Source: Bolinopsis microptera
Lineage: Eukaryota > Ctenophora > Tentaculata > Lobata > Bolinopsidae
Direction of reading: 5' to 3'
DNA length: 64,000 nt
Assembly: GCF_026151205.1 (NCBI RefSeq)
Contig: NC_087077.1
Location: forward strand, 4,030,001-4,094,000
Each line of letters opens with the position of its first letter. The first letter of the stretch is position 1. Below the pieces are notes generated by a model. That model had not been told where the DNA came from. It ran no database searches and saw only the letters and a list, made by a program, of their open reading frames with translations. Position numbers and translations under genes: made by a program. This document shows, piece by piece, positions 4,649 to 55,010 of this stretch.

Positions 4649-4816
4649 CGGCTCAAGATGTACAGTACTTGAGATTCGGCTCAAGATGTACAGTACTTGA
4701 GATTCGGCTCAAGATGTACAGTACTTGAGATTCGGCTCAAGATGTACAGTACTTGAGATTCGGCTCAAGATGTACAGTACTTGAGATTCGGCTCAAGATG
4801 TACAGTACTTGAGATT
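4649..4816. repeat. 28-bp minisatellite, 6 copies
   Basis: Six essentially identical 28-bp units (168 bp). Each contains the imperfect dyad TCAAGATGTACAGTACTTGA, so each unit can fold on itself. The lack of divergence implies recent expansion or homogenisation. A short AGG trinucleotide run follows at about 4883-4910. Confidence 0.95.
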
Positions 4817-6981
4817 GAAATATCCGCTGCACTGTGAGTAAGAGATTATGAGCTAGACAACTGTTGGAAACTCTAGACTCGACTGAAGGCTAAGGAGGAG
4901 GAGGAGGAGGAGTGCCTGGTACCCTGGTACTAACTACCACTCTATTGAGTATTGAGGCGCACTCGACAGAACTGTGAATATTTATATAGCTGGAAACGAT
5001 CATAAGCAACAGTAAGATGTAACAGAACTGCTGCAAGCTGGCTCACTCTCTTTCCTAAATACAACAACTGAAAAATTATAAAACTCTACTGATTAAAGTT
5101 TTCGAACTAAAAAGAAGTGACAAAAACAACAATCGCAGCTCTAAACCTCTAAAAACCCCCACATTGGTTTAGCGTAGACAGAAGTACAAGAGATGTCACG
5201 TGACAGCAGTACAAGAGATGTCACGTATTGTCGCAAGCTAATTGACGTGAGCACTTCTGACATGCAACAGGGGTCTCAGTCACTGTGCGTGTACTAACTT
5301 ACTGCCATACGTAGCATTTATAAATAAACAGTCAAGTATGTGCGAAGTTGCGCTTCGTGTCAGACTCCTAAAGTGTGTCTAACAAACAATGGAAAAGTTG
5401 GTGACATTTAAAACTTGAAAGGCTGGAAGTGCGTAGGGAGTCGATGTAGGTCACAAATAAGCCACAAAACTAATAAACAAAGCTACTGTCTAGAGTAGCT
5501 AAAATAGCTTGTCAAAGGCTGTTTTTAAACTTCTGTCACAGAAATAGCTTGTCAACAAAACTTATGATATTATGAAGGATGCTAATAAAAGGTCTACTAT
5601 TTGTGAAGTGTTGTCATTGGTCGAGATGTCGTGATGTCGGGCAGATTGAATTTTTTAAACGACGGTCTCGAATTTTCGAGGGGTTTAACCTGAAACGATT
5701 AAAATCGAGCATCTGAATCGATTACGAATGCACGAGATAACGAATTGAACGATTTATTCGATCAAAGTTTAAATAAGTTGTAGACCCGTCTAGCATATAA
5801 TAAACAGTTAAGACTAAGTGGACATAAACATAATAAATTTAAGCAAGAGATAACAAAATAATAGTGATCAATAACAGAATCTTGCGTAACTTATCGAGGT
5901 CGAGACAATAAATATAAGTTAATGTGTAGGCGGATTTGTTTCAGCACTACAAGTCAAGTCTAAAAATAATTTCACCGGAGTCTGCAAGTCGGGGAGGGTT
6001 CTAGAAGAAGCAATGACGAACCATCATCCAGCTCTCAAATAATAAGGCCACCTAATTAGTGGGATCCAACCAAAAACCAACAAACCTGTAATACCAGAAC
6101 TAGCAGCCACCAATCTAGGTCACGTGATGCCCATATAAGGAGTGCCCCAGCAGAACTAGCAGCCACAGATCTGCTTTTAATGTACAACCCTTTATTTTCA
6201 GGCTATAAAATAATACAGGTAGTCGTTCAAGTACCGGGCTGCTCGTTTTTATGTTATCGCATAATCAGTCTGTGTGAGGTAACTCGGGGGGCAGGTCACA
6301 GTTATTACAAATTAGCCAACAAATCTCCAGGATAACTTGAATAATTGGTTAACTTAGAAAGAGTGTATAATTACAGGGGGTAAAGATGACGGCTGAGCAC
6401 GCTGTACAAGTGCTGCTAGTAAAGGCAGGCCCGTGTTATTGAGCCATTTACTTGAAGTGCGTGCTAGGCGTGACAACAAACAAGTCAGCAATACGAGTCC
6501 GGCTATTAAATTTCATTATCCAATCTGGCATGGTTGCATCATCGGAGATTATAAGAAAATTCGCGATAAAAGTAGGGCTTCAAATGAATTGCTACTCAGG
6601 GAGGAATATTGAGGGGCCTCGCTGGCACCGCTCCAAAAGTAGTCTGTTAATGGCCGCATAACACGATGACAGCCGATATGACAACGTTACTACAGACGGT
6701 TTTCTATGATAACCGTATCAAGAGTCAGATAACCATGATATTCGGGTTTTAGCGATGACCTTATCATATTCAATATTCACATTTGACAAGGAGCTAAGTA
6801 CAATGAATTATATAGAAAAAGGAAACCTGTAATGAGGTCGGATATTAAAAGGTAAAGAGGGCACAAACAAAACCCTAGAAAACTCGTACGATGTGTGTTT
6901 GTGACAGAGAAAGAAACCTGAAAATAGTAAAGATCAGGAGATTTTGGATAAGGATAGGACTCAGCGAGGGAGATGTAGAAC
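4817..6981. other. Non-coding stretch
   Basis: No recognisable gene. At about 5184-5226 a 20-bp segment containing CAGTACAAGAGATGTCACGT occurs twice in tandem. Nothing else supports a feature. Confidence 0.5.
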
Positions 6982-31376: not shown

Positions 31377-33470
31377 ACAAGGATACAAGGATACAAGGAT
31401 ACAAGGATACAAGGATACAAAAGTGATGATTATTTTATTGAATTCACAATAGTTATAATTCTGAAATAATTTAAGGTTACACAATTCTAGTTATTTACAG
31501 ATGTGTAGGGATAAAATAGAAATGTTTAATATAATACTATTTTTGAGGTCCTATAGCATTATGCATTGGCCAGTATTTGAGTGGAAATCTGGGCTCTTAT
31601 AGTAGGCTGTAAAATTTTCGTTCACAGAGAGAATTGAATGGATTGCTCTTGCTGTGGCAGTAAATTTTGTAGGGTCTAGTGTTTTATCGGATAGCAAACC
31701 GGCTAGGTCAGTAATATTTTTGGGATGGAAGTTAAATTTTTCTCTAACTGAGGAGTAGAGTAAACAGTCAGTTAGAACATGAATTTCGTCCTCAATAGGC
31801 TTAAGCCCCTTGCTGAAAAAGCAAAAAGTGCACCATCGATGTTCTCTTGGTACTAGGGGGGTTTCGTAACGGCCCCTCTCAATGTAAAGATTGTGGCAGC
31901 TAATACGAAACCTTGTTAAGCTTTTCCGAGCATCAGGGATCTTAACCACTCCTAAGTATGTTTCTGGTTCAAAATCATGTTTAATTTGATTGTAGAATTC
32001 TAATTTAGGTGAGGATGCCTTGGCAGATTTCCAGGTATCCACAAATTCTTCCCTCATGTTGTGACTGATTTGGGTTAGAGAGCTTGGATTTTGAAGAGGA
32101 TGAGTGGGGGAAGTTATATTTGGTGAGAAGATTAGAGATGTTGGTGTACCAAGGAAGGCCCAGCATAATCTGCTCGTGAAATGCAGCGGAGAGAAGTTCA
32201 TTTTCAGTGCTTTCAAGGCGAGTATAGAAATCTATTGCAAGTTTGCAGGCTTCAAAGAAGAGGGGGTGGCGCCCACTTTCGCCCCAGCAGCCTATATTTG
32301 ATGCTTTTGAATGGACAGACAAGGACCACTTGATAAACTTAAGGTGGAATCTTTCATAGTGGTCTTGTGAGATGTACCTGAGAGTATGCTGGGGGTTGGC
32401 TTTGCTATCTGTTTTGGAGAGGTATCTCATGGTTTTTGAGTGAGGACATAAGATTTGGCAGCCATAGAGCAGTATCGGTTTTATTAGAGAGTCAAATAGA
32501 ATGTTTAGAGAACGGTGAGAGAGGGCATCTTTGACGATATTGCCTTTGAGGCCATAGAGAGCACGGAGAGCCTTGGCCCTCAGTTCAGTATTTGCTGCTG
32601 TAAAAGATCCATTTCTGTGGAATATAATGCCAAGATAGCAGTATTTGTCGGTGTGTTGGATGGGCTGGCCTCCCAAAATGAATGTTTCATAGGATTGTTT
32701 TCTTTTAGGAGGGCAGAATATGAGAATCTTGGTTTTTTTAATGTTTACTTCAAGGCCCATAGAGTTACAGAAGTCGAATAGGATGTTTATATTGTCTTGC
32801 AAGGCCTTGGGACGTAGGGCAAGTAGGACAAGATCGTCAGCCCAGAGCAGATGTGATATTAGGACGTCAGCTAGAATAGGATAATCACCAACAGATTTCA
32901 GGAGAGATGACAAGTCGTTGATATAGATTTTAAAAAGGTCCGGTGATAGAGGGTTTCCCTGCTCTGTTCCTTTTCCAATGTCAATATTAGGGGACAAGAG
33001 TTTGGAGATTTTTATATGAGCTATATATTGAGTTTCTATACATATCACTTAGGCAATTGAAGAAGTTTCCAGTTATTCCAAGGCATGTGATTTTGTGCAG
33101 AAGGAGGTCCCTACATACAGTGTCAAAGGCCTTTCTTAGATCAACAAAGCATGCATAGAAACGAGCTTTTTTAACCTTGGTATATTTGTCAATGACTGTC
33201 TTAAGGGTAAAAACGTGGTCATTTGTTTGAGCACCCTTCGAGAACCCTAGTTGTTCTTTTGGGTCAGGGCAGTAGAGCTTTTTGAAGTGCAGGAGACGCT
33301 CAAGTAAGATGCTAGAGAACAGTTTACCTATACAGCTACCAGTGAGCGAGGGGTTTGGAAGAGCTAATAGATCTTCAGAATAGCTGAAAGAGCTAAAACT
33401 AACTTGTAACGTAATGTTTGACGAGCCCCTTGTTATACAGGTTGTCATTCAGAGACCTCTCATCACAATT
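31377..33470 (-). mobile_element. 5'-truncated non-LTR retrotransposon (LINE)
   Basis: A reverse-transcriptase coding remnant (31551-33448, minus strand) is followed by a short 3' UTR with an AATAAA signal. The element ends in a tail of about five tandem ATACAAGG units at 31377-31418 (TTGTATCC when read in the element's direction). A short microsatellite tail instead of poly(A) is characteristic of CR1/L2-like LINEs. The 5' part, including any ORF1 and endonuclease, is missing, as expected for a copy made by incomplete target-primed reverse transcription. The exact 5' breakpoint near 33450-33480 is uncertain. Confidence 0.85.
31551..33448 (-). pseudogene. LINE reverse transcriptase, frameshifted remnant
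   Basis: Three overlapping minus-strand frames make up one broken reverse-transcriptase polypeptide. The upstream piece (32987-33448) carries the motif A region ACFVDLRKAFDTV. The middle piece (32005 to about 33048) carries GTEQGNPLSPDLF (finger/motif B) and LLWADDLVLL, in which ADD is the catalytic motif C. The downstream piece (31551 to about 32070) carries the C-terminal region found in many animal LINEs, with RISCHNLYIERGRY followed by a Cys-His cluster of the form C-x2-C-x(n)-H-x4-C. Frame changes fall near 33015-33040 and near 32060. Two frameshifts and the missing 5' end make it inactive. Family assignment (CR1/L2-like or a relative) is inferred from motif style only. Confidence 0.9.
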
Positions 33471-38735: not shown

Positions 38736-38781
38736 CCAGTCTAAAAACCCGAGATACTTCGTCTCTTTTTTATGAAATAAC
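38736..38781 (+). promoter_or_regulatory. Degenerate core promoter region of kinase copy 1
   Basis: CTAAAAACCCGAGATAC lies where kinase copy 2 has TATAAAAGACACGAGATAC. The shared GAGATAC just downstream shows the regions are homologous, but the TATA element is not intact here. This is an inference from comparing the two copies. Confidence 0.35.
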
Positions 38782-39564
38782 ATGTTATCCTCAAACCTTT
38801 TAAAAGGATTAGTCGTTATAAAGCAGCTGGGAGCAGGCGGTAACGGTACAGTATACCTCACACAACACAAGATATCCCTCAACAAATACGTGGTCAAGGT
38901 ATTTAGAGATCATCCTGACCTTCCTATGGTCTATCAGGACGGGACAGAACTACCACTAGAGATAGCGACTCTAAGATCACTTCATCACCCCAATGTAGTG
39001 AAGTATAAAACTCACTTCCTGTTTAACGGAGAATGGTATCTGCTGATGGACTACGAGCCAGGATTCAGTGATCTGCACACCTTGACTCGGAGCTGCAGAC
39101 TTACTGAGAAGACAGTACTAAGCATAGCAGAGCAGCTGTACGCAGTAGTGGATTACTGTCTTAAGAACAACATCGACCACGGAGACATCAAGGAAGAGAA
39201 TATCCTCTACAATCCGAAGACAAACCAACTCAAACTGATAGACTTCGGTACTGCTCTCCCTCTTTCTAAACAACCTATCAACTTTCTCAGAGGTACCACC
39301 ATGTGTCTGCCTCCTGAAGCGTTCTCCAAACCTCAGTACTTCCCACTTCAAGCCAGTGTCTGGGCTATTGGGTGTGTTCTATACGGCTGTATGACGGGAA
39401 GACCTGCATTTTCGGAAACTTCTGACATCCTGAACAAGAGAGCCAGAATTCTACTACACAAAAATAAACTCTACTCTGGGAAACTGGTAAACCTGGTGGA
39501 GCGATGTTTGGAACCTTGCCGAATTATGAGGATCATGTGGTCAGAGTTGGGAAGAAACTTGTGA
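38782..39564 (+). CDS. PIM-like serine/threonine protein kinase, copy 1 (260 aa)
   Basis: A compact intronless protein kinase consisting of the catalytic domain only. Visible elements in order: glycine-rich loop GAGGNG (residues 17-22), ATP-anchoring Lys39 (YVVKVF), helix-C Glu60, hinge LLMDYEPG (88-94) with a proline as in PIM kinases, catalytic loop HGDIKEEN (133-140), DFG at 154-156, PPE at 177-179, and VWAIG (193-197) lacking the usual preceding Asp, again as in PIM. Catalytic Lys, Glu, Asp135, Asn140 and DFG Asp are all present, so activity is plausible. The HRD arginine is Gly, so activation-loop phosphorylation control of the RD type is not expected. It differs from copy 2 (46436-47218) at roughly a dozen residues, mostly near the N-terminus, plus C105, K128, L224 and M249. 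The short C-terminus is complete for the fold. Protein substrates are unknown. Confidence 0.85.
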   Translation: MLSSNLLKGLVVIKQLGAGGNGTVYLTQHKISLNKYVVKVFRDHPDLPMVYQDGTELPLEIATLRSLHHPNVVKYKTHFLFNGEWYLLMDYEPGFSDLHTLTRSCRLTEKTVLSIAEQLYAVVDYCLKNNIDHGDIKEENILYNPKTNQLKLIDFGTALPLSKQPINFLRGTTMCLPPEAFSKPQYFPLQASVWAIGCVLYGCMTGRPAFSETSDILNKRARILLHKNKLYSGKLVNLVERCLEPCRIMRIMWSELGRNL

Positions 39565-46360: not shown

Positions 46361-46435
46361 GACACGAGATACCTCTACTCGTCATCACTTCGTCACTACT
46401 ACGTCACACTTTGCAACTTCTATTAAACAACTATC

Positions 46436-47218
46436 ATGATACCTTCAACTCTTCCAAGAGGTTTACTCGTTATAAAGCAGCTGGGAGCAGGCGGTAACGG
46501 TACAGTGTACCTAACACAACACAAGATATCCCTCAACAAATACGTGGTCAAGGTATTTAGAGATCACCCTGACCTTCCTATAGTCTATCAGGACGGGACA
46601 GAACTACCACTAGAGATAGCGACACTAAGATCACTTCATCACCCCAATGTAGTGAAGTATAAAACTCACTTCCTGTTTAACGGAGAATGGTATCTGCTGA
46701 TGGACTACGAGCCAGGATTCAGTGATCTGCACACCTTGACTCGGAGCTTCAGACTTACTGAGAAGACCGTACTGAGCATAGCAGAGCAGCTGTACGCAGT
46801 AGTGGATTACTGTCTTCAGAACAACATCGACCACGGAGACATCAAGGAAGAGAATATCCTCTACAATCCGAAGACAAACCAACTCAAACTGATAGACTTC
46901 GGTACTGCTCTCCCTCTTTCTAAACAACCTATCAACTTTCTCAGAGGTACCACCATGTGTCTGCCTCCTGAAGCGTTCTCCAAACCTCAGTACTTCCCAC
47001 TTCAAGCCAGTGTCTGGGCTATCGGGTGTGTTCTATACGGCTGTATGACGGGAAGACCTGCATTTTCTGAAACTTCTGACATCCTGAACAAGAGAGCCAG
47101 AATTCCACTACACAAAAAGAAACTCTACTCTGGGAAACTGGTAAACCTGGTGGAGCGATGTTTGGAACCCTGCCGAATTTTGAGAATCATGTGGTCAGAG
47201 TTGGGAAGAAACTTGTGA
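46436..47218 (+). CDS. PIM-like serine/threonine protein kinase, copy 2 (260 aa)
   Basis: Near-identical paralogue of the kinase at 38782-39564, with the same length, strand and intronless structure. All ATP-binding and catalytic residues are kept: GAGGNG loop at 17-22, Lys39, Glu60, HGDIKEEN at 133-140, DFG at 154-156. The HRD arginine is likewise glycine. The first residues differ (MIPSTLPRGLL against MLSSNLLKGLV). Internal differences include I49, F105, Q128, P224, K228 and L249. The 3' flank is duplicated too, so one event copied a unit of at least 1.3 kb, with later insertions between copies. It lies tail to tail with the PRPSAP gene, whose stop codon is about 890 bp away. The absence of introns in a genome whose other gene is richly spliced suggests an ancestral retrocopy, which is inference. 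Confidence 0.85.
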   Translation: MIPSTLPRGLLVIKQLGAGGNGTVYLTQHKISLNKYVVKVFRDHPDLPIVYQDGTELPLEIATLRSLHHPNVVKYKTHFLFNGEWYLLMDYEPGFSDLHTLTRSFRLTEKTVLSIAEQLYAVVDYCLQNNIDHGDIKEENILYNPKTNQLKLIDFGTALPLSKQPINFLRGTTMCLPPEAFSKPQYFPLQASVWAIGCVLYGCMTGRPAFSETSDILNKRARIPLHKKKLYSGKLVNLVERCLEPCRILRIMWSELGRNL

Positions 47219-48104: not shown

Positions 48105-51100
48105 TCAGTCCTGTGTAATATTAGTGAAGAGAGCTGACATGCTCTCCCCATTATGTATCCGCCTGATAGCCTCCGCAAACATTTTACTGACGTCCACCAC
48201 GTGGATCTTGGGACAGAGAGCCAGTCCGTCCGATAAAGGAACTGAAAATGGAGATTGTTACAAATCAAATAGTTTTGCAAATAGTCTTTAATGTTAATGA
48301 GGCGAAGATTTCGTTATCAGAATCCAAATAAAAATCACAGTCTCTAACGTTTCAAACTGAAACCGGATTATAAAGTGATGATTATGATAATACTGAATAA
48401 TTGTGATTATAATTATGCTGAATATTCGACTCCACAACTAAACTCACCAGTGTTCGTTATGATGACCTGATCTAAACTAGGAGAAGAGTTGATTATTTGC
48501 AGAGCATTTCCAGACAAGATACCGTGTGTTGCCATGGCGTACACCTTCAGTGCACCTTGCTCCTTTAGAAATCCTGCTAGTAGGCACCACGGCTCCACAT
48601 CGTCTATAATATCGTCTAGTAAAATTGCTATCTGAAGAAAAATAGGACCGTCAATTATAATCCTTGCTTGTAATTGTCATAATATAAAATTCCTCTGAAA
48701 CTTGAATATTCATAGAGATCATGATACTATAGGGTTAAGAGATTACCTTGTCCTTAACAGATCCGACTAGAGAAAGAGAGGGTTTTATCTTCTGCTGATA
48801 AGGAGGTATTGGAGTTGGGAAGCTGCAGGCGAAGGTAGCTGGAGTAACTACAGGTAGAATACCGCTATTACCTCCGATTAGTGGAGTAGGGGGAGGTGAC
48901 GTTCTGCCATCTATCTCTCTCTGGAAACGGCGGAAAGTGACAATAGAATAATAGAAGGGTGCACGTTGTTATTATATCAGCAACGGCAGAATCAAGGCGT
49001 TTTGGAATCATCACTGTAAAATGTAAATGGGTAACAGTGGGTTGGTAGTACTACAAGTATTACTATAATCTACTATTCAGTAGTAGAAGTAAAACATAAA
49101 GTTTAGCTCCTCACTCCTCACTCACCTCCTCCTTCAGCTCTCCGTGAATCACAGCAAAGTTAACTCTGAGACGTTCAGCGTAACTAGAGACCCGTCTTGT
49201 AGAACTGGGGTTCTTAGCAACCATCACACACTCACGATAGTTGGTGATGTTGTCTAGTATATACTGAGAGGGGTTGTTATAGTTGGTGATGTTGTCTAGT
49301 ATATACTGAGAGGGGTTGTTATAGTTGGTGATGTTGTCTAGTATATACTGAGAGGGGTTGTTATAGTTGGTGATGTTGTCTAGTATATACTGAGAGGGGT
49401 TGGGTTGTTATATAGTTGGTGATGTTGTCTAGTATATACTGAGAGGGGTTGTTATAGTTGGTGATGTTGTCTAGTATATACTGAGAGGGGTTGTTATAGT
49501 TGGTGATGTTGTCTAGTATATACTGAGAGGGGTTGTTATATAGTTGGTGATGTTGTCTAGTATATACTGAGAGGGGTTGTTATAGTTGGTGATGTTGTCT
49601 AGTATATACTGAGAGGGGTTGTTATAGTTGGTGATGTTGTCTAGTATATACTGAGAGGGGTTGTTATAGTTGGTGATGTTGTCTAGTATATACTGAGAGG
49701 GGTTGTTATAGTTGGTGATGTTGTCTAGTATATACTGAGAGGGGTTGTTATAGTTGGTGATGTTGTCTAGTATATACTGAGAGGGGTTGTTATAGTTGGT
49801 GATGTTGTCTAGTATATACTGAGAGGGGTTAGTGGTGATGTTGTCTAGTATATACTGAGAGGGGTGTTGAAAACACGAGATAGTTGGTGATGTTGTCTAG
49901 TATATACTGAGAGGGGTTGTTGAAAACACGAGATAGTTGGTGATGTTGTCTAGTATATACTGAGAGGGGTTGTTGAAAACACGAGATAGTTGGTGATGTT
50001 GTCTAGTATATACTGAGAGGGGTTGTTGAAAACACGAGACTTAATACGATAGTTGGTGATGTTGTCTAGTATATACTGAGAGGGGTTGTTGAAAACACGA
50101 GACTTAATACTAACAAAGTGAGCTGTGTAAAGATTGCTCACCAATCACCAGAACACCAGGTGACACATATTAATATTTCATATATCATAATGTATCGACT
50201 CAAGTTGTTAATTCAGAAAGTGTAGAAGTACCTGTAAGAGGAATGTAGAATGTTAACAGTACCTGTAAGAGGAATGTAGAATGCTAACAGTACCTGTAAG
50301 AGGAATGTAGAATGTTAACAGTACCTGTAAGAGGAATGTAGAATGTTAACAGTACCTGTAAGAGGAATGGAGAATGTTAACAGTACCTGTAAGAGGAATG
50401 TAGAAGGTTAACAGTACCTGTAAGAGGAATGTAGAATGTTAACAGTACCTGTAAGAGGAATGTAGAATGTTAACAGTACCTGTAAGAGGAATGTAGAATG
50501 TTAACAGTACCTGTAAGAGGAATGTAGAAGGTTAACAGTACCTGTAAGAGGAATGTAGAATGTTAACAGTACCTGTAAGAGGAATGTAGAATGTTAACAG
50601 TACCTGTAAGAGGAATGTAGAATGTTAACAGTACCTGTAAGAGGAATGGTGAAGATCGGAGGTTGTCAACTGAACAGTCGAAGAACCCATGTATTTCTCG
50701 TTGGTGAAGATCCATAGTGATCAGATGATTAATACCTGTTAGAAAAGTATGAATTATATGCGTGTGCCAACTTATTAAGCTTGATTAATAAACGCATAAA
50801 ACATTACATCACGATCATTACGTCACGGAAACTAAGATAGAATAAAGTAAGATATGTGATATAGTACCTGCGTTACACATCATTTTAGCAATCAGTTTAG
50901 ATGTGATGCAGGCTCTTCTTCTCATTCTACACTGTTTAGAGTAAGGTAGATAAGGTATCACCGCTAAGGGAGGGGAGTCATTAGTATCCAACTAAAAGAG
51001 CATATCCGCATAATAATAGGGATATCATACATTACATACAAGTGTGTGGCATCGTGCCAATATTGTTGTGATCATTCGTTGGTAGTGTGTTAACTAATCT

Positions 51101-51873
51101 TTAACGAAGGCAAAAACAATAGGACGGCTTTACTTTTTAGGAATAACATATCATAGGTTTATATATATGGTAAGAAGTAACTGAAGGAGACAAACCTACA
51201 ATTTTGCGAGCGGAGGAAGTTTTACAAGCGTACACCATGGTCAACATCTCGAACACATCATTGTTCACTTTCTTTGATCCGCTCTGGATGATGTACACTT
51301 CTTTACCGCGGATACTCTCCTGTAGCTTTACTTCTGTCTCTGTTGACGTCAGGTTGTGCACCAGGATATCTCCTAACTTCACTCCCACGTGACTGAATAG
51401 ATTTTATCACGTGACTAAATAGTTTATATCACGTGACTAAATAGTTTATATCACGTGACTGAATAGGTTTTATCACGTGACTGAATAGGTTTTATCACGT
51501 GACTGAATAGGTTATATCACGTGACTGAATAGGTTTTATCACGTGACTGAATAGGTTTTATCAAGTGACTGAATAGGTTTTATCACGTGACTGAATAGGT
51601 TTTATCACGTGACTGAATAGGTTTTATCACGTGACACTTGTATCTACGAAGTCAAAGTTTATTTCTAGAGATTTCTGAACATTTGATGTAAAAGTCCTCT
51701 CCTTTGGAGAATTGAGCTATTGCAAAATCGAATCTAATCATAGAATTATCAACGGAATACAATAAATATTGATTGAATCTGTAAATGACATTAGCGTACC
51801 CAGCAATATCCTCTGCAATAGCAGGGTGGCTCTGTCCAGCAAATATCACCATGGGAGGTCGGGGGTCCCCCAT
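48105..51873 (-). CDS. PRPSAP: PRPP synthetase-associated protein (PRPSAP family), 8 exons, 366 aa
   Basis: Join, in transcript order: 51873-51800, 51392-51196, 50963-50868, 50735-50635, 49263-49126, 48920-48747, 48631-48448, 48241-48105. All introns are GT..AG and phases agree throughout. The protein matches the phosphoribosyl-pyrophosphate synthetase fold. Landmarks: [12 protein letters not shown] (exon 2), [11 protein letters not shown] (residues 91-101), [14 protein letters not shown] (exon 4), [17 protein letters not shown] (exon 5), PRPP-site region [11 protein letters not shown] (263-273), MATHGILSG and [11 protein letters not shown] near the C-terminus. The active enzyme has HKER in its catalytic loop; here the equivalent is HGEL, followed by a long Pro-rich insert with SPPPTPL (exon 6). 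Both features mark the non-catalytic associated proteins (PAP39/PAP41 in mammals, 356-369 aa) that bind and restrain PRPS in nucleotide synthesis. Three splice junctions are buried in minisatellites (separate entries). An acceptor (TTATTTCAG, ending at 51881) lies seven bases before the ATG, so there is an unseen upstream or trans-spliced leader exon. Confidence 0.93.
49206..50110 (-). repeat. Minisatellite duplicating the exon 5 acceptor of PRPSAP, 19 copies
   Basis: Nineteen copies (the real exon 5 start included) of a unit which, read on the minus strand, contains the acceptor AACAACCCCTCTCAG followed by the first bases of exon 5 (encoding YILDNITNY). Spacing is 42 bp for most copies, with 49, 44 and 37 bp exceptions. 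Distal copies are longer, at 51-53 bp, and the outermost interval is 63 bp. The 42-bp unit is open in the exon frame and would encode [14 protein letters not shown]. The array occupies about 850 bp of the 1,371-bp fourth intron. Confidence 0.95.
50228..50644 (-). repeat. 31-bp minisatellite duplicating the exon 4 donor of PRPSAP, 14 copies
   Basis: Thirteen full 31-bp units plus the genuine junction. On the minus strand each unit reads TTCCTCTTACAG then GTACTGTTAACATTC, which is the end of exon 4 (encoding FLLQ) joined to its donor site. Copies are nearly identical, with a few substitutions (for example AATGGAG near 50359 and AAGGTTA near 50405 and 50530). Each unit juxtaposes a pyrimidine-rich CAG with GT. 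Confidence 0.95.
51391..51640 (-). repeat. 22-bp minisatellite duplicating the exon 2 acceptor of PRPSAP, 12 copies
   Basis: Twelve 22-bp units immediately upstream of exon 2. On the minus strand each unit contains CTATTCAG followed by TCACGTG, the same acceptor and first exon bases as the genuine junction at 51392/51393. Nearly every unit carries the palindromic E-box CACGTG (one has CAAGTG). The two units nearest the first copy have CTAAATAG in place of CTGAATAG on the plus strand, which replaces the acceptor CAG by TAG. Confidence 0.95.
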
Positions 51874-53745: not shown

Positions 53746-55010
53746 TTACGGGTAAATGCCTCACAGAATGGCTAGCCTCACAGAATGGCCAAATTTGTAA
53801 ATGTTTTTGTAACTAATTTTTTATATAAGACTGGTAGGTTTTGTGGATACCATATGAAACAAAAGTCTTCTGGCAACACTTCCTGTGGTGAAATCATTTA
53901 CTAGGACCACATTTTCTGGCATAAATATGACTGTTTATGTAGAAATTTTGAGCACTGAAAATTTGTTTTCAAATTTTTGAACTAAGTTTACATTTTGGTG
54001 AGAACTTCTGGCACCAGTATGACAGAAGATGTTTAAAGAATAGTATTCATCAAACAAAACGAACATTGTTCAATATAGGAAGAAAAAAATGCTAAAATGG
54101 CTACACGCCTCACAAAATGGCCAAAATATGCCTCACAAAATTTGTTTTCAAATTTTTGAACTAAGTTTGCATTTTGGTGAGAACTTCTGGCACCAGTATG
54201 ACAGAAGATGTTTAAAGAATAGTATTCATCAAACAAAACGAACATTGTTCAATATAGGAAGAAAAAAATGCTAAAATGGCTAAACGCCTCACAAAATGGC
54301 CAAAATATGCCTCACAAAATGGCCAAAATTTACAACTACTTTTATTCAATGAAACAATAAGTCTAAATTATTCACAAGCTATTTATCATACAATAACACC
54401 CCAGATGGAGTGTTTTTACAGCCGAATGAAGGTTATAAATCATGAAATCAGGGAATATGAACAACGCCACACAAAATGGCCATTTTTGGTGTAGGAAATT
54501 ATGCCCTTTTTATTCAGTTCTAAGAAATTTCACCTATATGGGGGTGTTAACAAGGCATATTAATACCAGCAGCATGCCTGAAACAAGAGCCAAAGGTTTT
54601 AGAAAAATAAAATTTTCTCGTTTTCTTTTTTTTTGCCATTTTGTGAGGCATTTTTTCTTTTTTGTGAAATAATTTTTCACAGCTCAGTTTTTTCGTGAGT
54701 TTTAGGTTATTACCCCATTCCTTAATAGGTTTTCTAACAACGTGTGGTGATAGAAATTTAAAAAGTATCTCCATCAAAAAATTATAGAAATTAAGATTTT
54801 GCCATTCTGTGAGGCATGTTTTTTTGGAGGAAGATTTTCCGGCCAATTTTTCTCAAAGAAAAAATGGTTATGAGATTAAATCAACCCCCGTGAAGAAAAA
54901 TATGAGTGTCAACTTAGCTTCTTATGAGATAAAAACTGGAATAAAGTGTGTTTTGTGATTTTGAGAGACCTTCCTTTTTTTTGGCCATTCTGTGAGGCAA
55001 ATACCCGTAA
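53746..55010. mobile_element. 1.27-kb inverted-repeat element with internal copies of its end motif
   Basis: Left end TTACGGGTAAATGCCTCACA and right end, reverse-complemented, TTACGGGTATTTGCCTCACA match over about 30 bp (both continue GAATGGC). The motif GCCTCACARAATGGC recurs about ten times, in direct orientation in the left half (near 53758, 53774, 54107, 54130, 54287, 54309 and a variant near 54466) and inverted in the right half (near 54636, 54780, 54983). A 179-bp tandem duplication spans 53959-54316. No transposase is encoded; open frames here are short and follow the duplicated segments. It is a non-autonomous DNA element, superfamily unknown. TAA/TTA at the edges could be part of the termini or a target duplication. 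Confidence 0.8.

Follow-up and report, generated by a model that had tools for sequence, protein, structure and literature searches.

Introduction

Minisatellites whose units span an exon–intron border, the 'mirage' minisatellites, have been described from lancelets in Adh3, the globin genes BflGb6 and BflGb9, TnC, and PGBD5 (PMC3087553, PMC3902484). Their units measure 10–72 bp in Adh3 and about 150–160 bp in the globins (PMC3087553). These mirages are reported or suggested to leave splicing undisturbed (PMC3087553, PMC3902484). A related process, intron gain by tandem duplication, was described in Drosophila (PMC2891723). Among open-licence PMC papers, the mirage reports found were from lancelets, and no ctenophore report of minisatellites or duplicated splice sites was recognised.

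We analysed a window of 64,000 nucleotides (contig C6, 4030001–4094000), which contains a PRPSAP gene on the minus strand. At three borders of this gene, tandem repeat units span the exon–intron border and reach 27, 14, and 7 coding bases into the exons in arrays 1, 2, and 3, respectively, as measured from repeat-finder edges against exon ends. The units are of minisatellite size (42, 31, and 22 bp), and the copies contain splice signals, with 19 acceptors and 14 donors of near-equal scores. The PRPSAP arrays fit the known mirage anatomy. If the host is a ctenophore, as it is taken to be, they add a new lineage, in a different branch of the animals, to the mirage reports. The example is dense, as it involves the donor and the acceptor of a single intron and three borders within the gene.

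Like the lancelet mirages, the PRPSAP repeats lie over exon–intron borders, hit both donors and acceptors, and carry splice signals in many copies. Unlike those mirages, they sit in a host that appears not to be a lancelet, affect a single intron at both borders and a single gene at three, and consist of nearly identical copies. Splicing and instability were examined in the lancelet cases, and the PRPSAP arrays were studied at the level of DNA sequence. The human IFI6 (6-16) gene reportedly has a minisatellite with multiple splice donors, and its extra donors are said to be used in transcripts. IFI6 and PRPSAP are alike in having a minisatellite at an exon–intron border with a donor in each copy, but the extra donors of PRPSAP would break the frame. 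Tandem-array introns of human genes were reportedly treated by Zhuo in 2007. The Drosophila and human cases of intron gain share with PRPSAP the splice signals inside a duplicated repeat. In those cases a new intron is made out of duplicated coding sequence, whereas PRPSAP shows the multiplication of a border that was already present. An intron gained by tandem duplication should have one unit at donor and acceptor, and the two ends of PRPSAP intron 4 differ.

Gene Structure and Splice-Border Arrays of PRPSAP

The spliced PRPSAP product was complete, with 366 aa encoded by eight coding exons between 51873 and 48105 (minus strand). Among human proteins, it matched PRPSAP2 (2ji4, E 2.4e-109) and PRPSAP1 (2c4k, E 3.3e-100). 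All eight exons were placed by protein match on the minus strand: exon 1 (51800..51873, 74 nt), exon 2 (51196..51392, 197 nt, with its acceptor within array 3), exon 3 (50868..50963, 96 nt), exon 4 (50635..50735, 101 nt, with its donor within array 2), exon 5 (49126..49263, 138 nt, with the final copy of array 1 as its acceptor), exon 6 (48747..48920, 174 nt), exon 7 (48448..48631, 184 nt), and exon 8 with the stop codon (48105..48241, 137 nt). Intron 4 (49264..50634, minus strand, 1371 nt) carries array 2 on the 5' side and array 1 on the 3' side.

The junction of exons 4 and 5, SPFLLQ^YILDNI, aligned to PRPSAP2 without a gap, and the junction of exons 1 and 2, IAG^HVGVKLG, did likewise. The alignment confirms the exon 5 start given in an earlier sequence-only reading. 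Since neither junction shows a gap, making the conserved protein takes the first of the donors in array 2 and, in arrays 1 and 3, the final acceptor.

Array 1 (49237..50110, minus strand) holds the exon 5 acceptor 19 times, in units of 36–63 bp, mostly 42 bp. The exon-side unit and most copies include 27 coding bases, and the 27 bases after the acceptor were identical in 18 of the 19 copies. The motif CTCTCAG|TATATACTAG was counted in exactly 19 exact copies, in agreement with the sequence-only reading, which had also correctly described units that hold both the acceptor and exon 5 coding bases and so cross the border. It had placed the array at 49206..50110; the end at 50110 stands, whereas the start falls 31 bases past the array edge, inside exon 5. 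Tandem Repeats Finder returned a 42-bp array at 49237–50027, with related 53- and 63-bp units up to 50110. From intron to exon, the unit lengths were 63, 53, 53, 52, 36, 42 (six times), 44, 42, 42, 49, 42, 42, and 42 bp. When the stretch with array 1 was searched against its own genome, it matched this place only, in a search that skips simple repeats and very common words. This result fits a local origin.

Array 2 (50227..50648, minus strand) holds the exon 4 donor 14 times in a 31-bp unit with 14 coding bases (motif CTCTTACAG|GTACT). Array 3 (51386..51635, minus strand) holds the exon 2 acceptor 11 times in a 22-bp unit with 7 coding bases (motif CTATT(C/T)AG|TCAC(G/T)TG). Arrays 1 and 2 share intron 4, and their 42-bp acceptor unit and 31-bp donor unit are unlike sequences. 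The amplification is wider than one acceptor event, with donors multiplied too and other genes alike; arrays 2 and 3 had been missed before.

Splice-Site Strength and Reading Frame

Splice sites were scored with matrices trained on this genome, using 68 introns that included the seven of PRPSAP itself. The 19 acceptors of array 1 scored 5.9–6.4. In array 2, 13 of the 14 donors scored 5.41 and the last donor 6.2. With scores so nearly equal, the right copy is not singled out by local site strength.

Intron 4 allows 14 × 19 = 266 donor–acceptor pairings, four of which were open through the normal stop. These four are the normal pairing and three 14-residue steps, with products of 366, 380, 394, and 408 residues. 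The three nearest extra acceptors, at 42, 84, and 126 bp, are in frame and open, and their use would add 14, 28, or 42 residues, as had been predicted. The remaining 15 of the 18 extra acceptors were not open, and openness stopped at the fourth extra copy. In the frame check, none of the 13 extra donors of array 2 and none of the 10 extra exon 2 acceptors of array 3 was open, so frame keeping is no property of these arrays. The in-frame steps of array 1 are probably due to chance, a 42-bp unit being divisible by three and stop-free often enough by chance. The proposal that the 14-residue steps have a function was not supported, given the near-equal site scores, the small share of open pairings, and the lack of open copies in the other two arrays.

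With 14 near-equal donors, 19 near-equal acceptors, and one pairing that leads to the conserved protein, intron 4 is a natural experiment on the choice made by the spliceosome. Local site strength is constant in it, and a first-come rule would pick the wrong acceptor. We also considered recursive splicing at AG|GT in array 2, but dropped it, as every AG|GT donor has that look.

Proposed Origin and Choice of Copy

The arrays are probably mirage-type minisatellites that came from duplication across a splice border, spread, and are tolerated since the copy touching the exon is the one spliced. In this model, a short tandem duplication would first arise across the border. The intron sequence ahead of the first copy of array 1 reads ...TTAGTATTAAGTCTCGTGTTTTCAACAACCCCTCTCAG. 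Array 1 would have started from a 63-bp duplication whose ends had only 'GT' in common, joining exon ...CTATC to intron GTATTAAG, with the GT shared at both ends. The outermost 63-bp unit keeps most of the TTAGTATTAAGTCTCGTGTTTTCAACAACCCCTCTCAG tail, the next three units are without about 10 bp of it, and the exon-ward 42-bp units are without a further 11 bp. The unit may in this way have been shortened twice, from 63 to 53 and then to 42 bp. The copies would then have spread by slippage or unequal exchange and piled up on the intron side, and the array length is probably unstable. The unit series suggests that the acceptor now in use traded its old upstream sequence for coding-derived sequence. 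In the PRPSAP arrays, coding bases have become intron sequence.

Splicing would use whichever copy abuts its own exon, and exon definition is the most likely means. The border would be marked by the real exon beyond the repeat unit, and not by site strength, and the other 18 acceptors and 13 donors would act as intron. Exon definition is only one possible way of favouring the outer copy. The intact conserved frame suggests that normal mRNA is made despite the copies, and the arrays are probably neutral. The assembly may misstate the number of copies.

Border Arrays Elsewhere in the Genome

The sample comprised 200 kb of contig C1, five chaperonin (PF00118) loci, and 14 kinesin (PF00225) loci, found by Pfam searches; the kinesin loci were a part of 109 PF00225 matches, picked for compactness. 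The homology set consisted of 61 introns (18 chaperonin and 43 kinesin) taken by rule from consecutive Pfam-matched exons. Their splice positions were inferred, a few with small margins. PRPSAP adds seven introns. A 62nd intron, in kinesin locus L039, failed the rule by too wide a profile gap; it was included by hand once its array had been noticed.

Arrays at splice borders are a recurrent feature of this genome, with four other genes showing them. The acceptor of kinesin locus L040, TTTTCAG|GAGGTAACA at QDSL^GGNSMT, was present in 31 exact copies. The L039 donor, ATTGAGAG|GTA, was present in about 10 diverged 11-bp units, and a stricter pattern gave four. At the donor of kinesin locus L035 we counted 22 units of GTGAGGTTAATTA type, in an array starting at the GT itself. 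A villin/gelsolin-like exon on C1 had an array at its acceptor, and the junction IYFWL^GSHSTTDERG showed no gap against villin. L042 was a weak border case with 2.8 copies. In the 18 chaperonin introns, no array of at least 2.8 copies crossed a border.

Array units were also compared with the borders of their own introns. The own border was in the best 6 of about 140 for 5 of 16 arrays, a weak signal at best, as the L040 border is trivially part of its array, L014 was chosen after the likeness had been noticed, and the own acceptor of L012 ranked last.

Several further structures were seen at these loci. In L040, a TTAA-bounded insert with inverted ends (4666–5525) interrupts the acceptor array, dividing it into two parts. 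In L035 (1588–1770), the presently inferred exon start is preceded by an older, duplicated acceptor together with some 67 bases of exon start; a 21-bp array separates the two, and its unit recurs as a longer array after the next donor. A CCT3-like gene (L028, 3549–5376) has a 30-bp unit repeated 61 times, which takes up the greater part of an intron and stops 19 bp short of the acceptor. In L014 (6600–7260, minus strand), many units of a 20-bp array contain GGGTAAGT/GGGTGAGT; the array follows a likely donor, TTGGGTAAGTTA, at a distance of about 110 bp and resembles it. Two recent kinesin copies on C13, L054 and L034, differ by about 0.9 kb in an intron. We considered an array difference there and rejected it, the difference being an inserted element with inverted repeats. 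The inverted ends of this element carry 11-bp tandem repeats, so some arrays here are borne by transposons. Near-identical kinesin copies also occur on C11 (11.303–11.306 and 11.336–11.342 Mb), in which the length of the same intron is about 1.6 kb versus 5.1 kb, judged by match positions.

Border Preference and Alternative Explanations

Arrays were accepted with a period of at least 9, at least 2.8 copies, and a score of at least 40; strict arrays required 3 copies and a score of 80. The expectation assumed uniform placement, and the border test left out PRPSAP and the hand-added L039. In the 61 homology introns, 8 of 15 arrays lay within 25 bp of a border or across it, against 2.75 expected (p 0.0002), and 5 of 9 strict arrays did so where 1.64 were expected (p 0.007). 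At a distance of 12 bp or less, 6 arrays were found against 1.98 expected (p 0.002), and 3 strict arrays where 1.18 were expected (p 0.09). When the array-rich gene L035 was excluded, the 25-bp counts were 4 of 10 against 0.61 (p 0.0015) and, for strict arrays, 2 of 5 against 0.44 (p 0.06). With L039 included, these counts were 9 of 16 and, for strict arrays, 6 of 10.

Of the 34 arrays in the 200-kb stretch of C1, 2 lay near confident predicted exon borders against 0.8–1.3 expected (p 0.2–0.4 at three thresholds). The home-made gene finder, run on 264 kb, overpredicted and chained far-apart exons, and only its single-exon scores were used. Weak predicted exons inside arrays were judged spurious, and exons more than half inside arrays were dropped from the C1 test. 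With PRPSAP and L039 left out, 3 of 122 splice dinucleotides lay in arrays, below the 15% of intron bases. A preference of arrays for borders is suggested.

Introns rich in arrays, together with chance, might explain this pattern, with minisatellites born anywhere in introns, a few of them crossing borders, and the border itself without a role. We give this explanation somewhat less than an even chance. It is compatible with the mirage-type origin preferred above and concerns the border preference alone. Arrays occupy some 15% of the intron sequence in the homology set, the C1 count is not significantly above expectation, and splice dinucleotides are rarer inside arrays than intron bases are, so the border arrays could be the tail of an array-rich genome. 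The excess near borders in the 61 homology introns argues against it, as does the presence of arrays at three borders of the single gene PRPSAP.

Use of the inner acceptors as alternative splice sites, adding 14-residue steps to the protein, is improbable. The three open in-frame acceptors and the near-equal site scores would allow it, but an insert would land in a gap-free conserved stretch, openness is gone from the fourth extra copy on, and no extra donor or extra exon 2 acceptor is open. Slightly less probable again is the birth of intron 4 by tandem duplication of a coding AG|GT sequence, with the arrays as its remains. Such a model was proposed for lancelet globins (PMC3087553), and arrays do lie at both ends of intron 4; however, this origin expects one unit at both ends, and the 31- and 42-bp units are unlike. 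We consider an assembly artefact the least probable of all. Long near-identical arrays are difficult to assemble, but the units form an ordered series (63, 53, 53, 52, 36, 42 ...) and have private indels, and different genes on different contigs carry comparable arrays. The mirage-type origin also admits a bolder extension, which we regard as rather doubtful. Splice borders of this probable ctenophore could be hot spots of minisatellite birth, with mirages widespread, convergent in distant animals, and tied to transcription or splicing, and with many introns in which only exon definition picks among a dozen identical sites.

Genome Context

The assembly has 264,652,675 bases. Thirteen contigs of 15–26 Mb make up 258.07 Mb (97.5%), and C14–C16 are each below 0.2 Mb. 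Tandem repeats occupied 9% of the sampled C1 sequence and 11% of the window. In Hormiphora, a ctenophore with 13 chromosomes, tandem repeats are given as 13% of the genome (PMC8527503). Wnt genes were found at about five loci of the present genome, with 17 matches. A search for zf-C4 gave no match in this genome, and control genomes likewise gave none, which leaves its absence unproven. Ctenophore nuclear receptors are not known to carry the zf-C4 finger, lancelets have many, and lancelet genomes are larger. COX1 was looked for in the assembly and was not found. The host is read here as a ctenophore, probably a Bolinopsis, with a lancelet very unlikely.

Outside PRPSAP, the window holds two near-identical protein-kinase frames (PF00069) on the plus strand, at 38776–39564 and 46427–47218, about 7.6 kb apart. 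Their downstream flanking frames are similar too, which points to a recent local duplication. Broken frames at 31551–33448 (minus strand) resemble a non-LTR retroelement, and the one tested matches RVT_1. At 53958–54320 there are two tandem copies of 179 bp, 98% matching.
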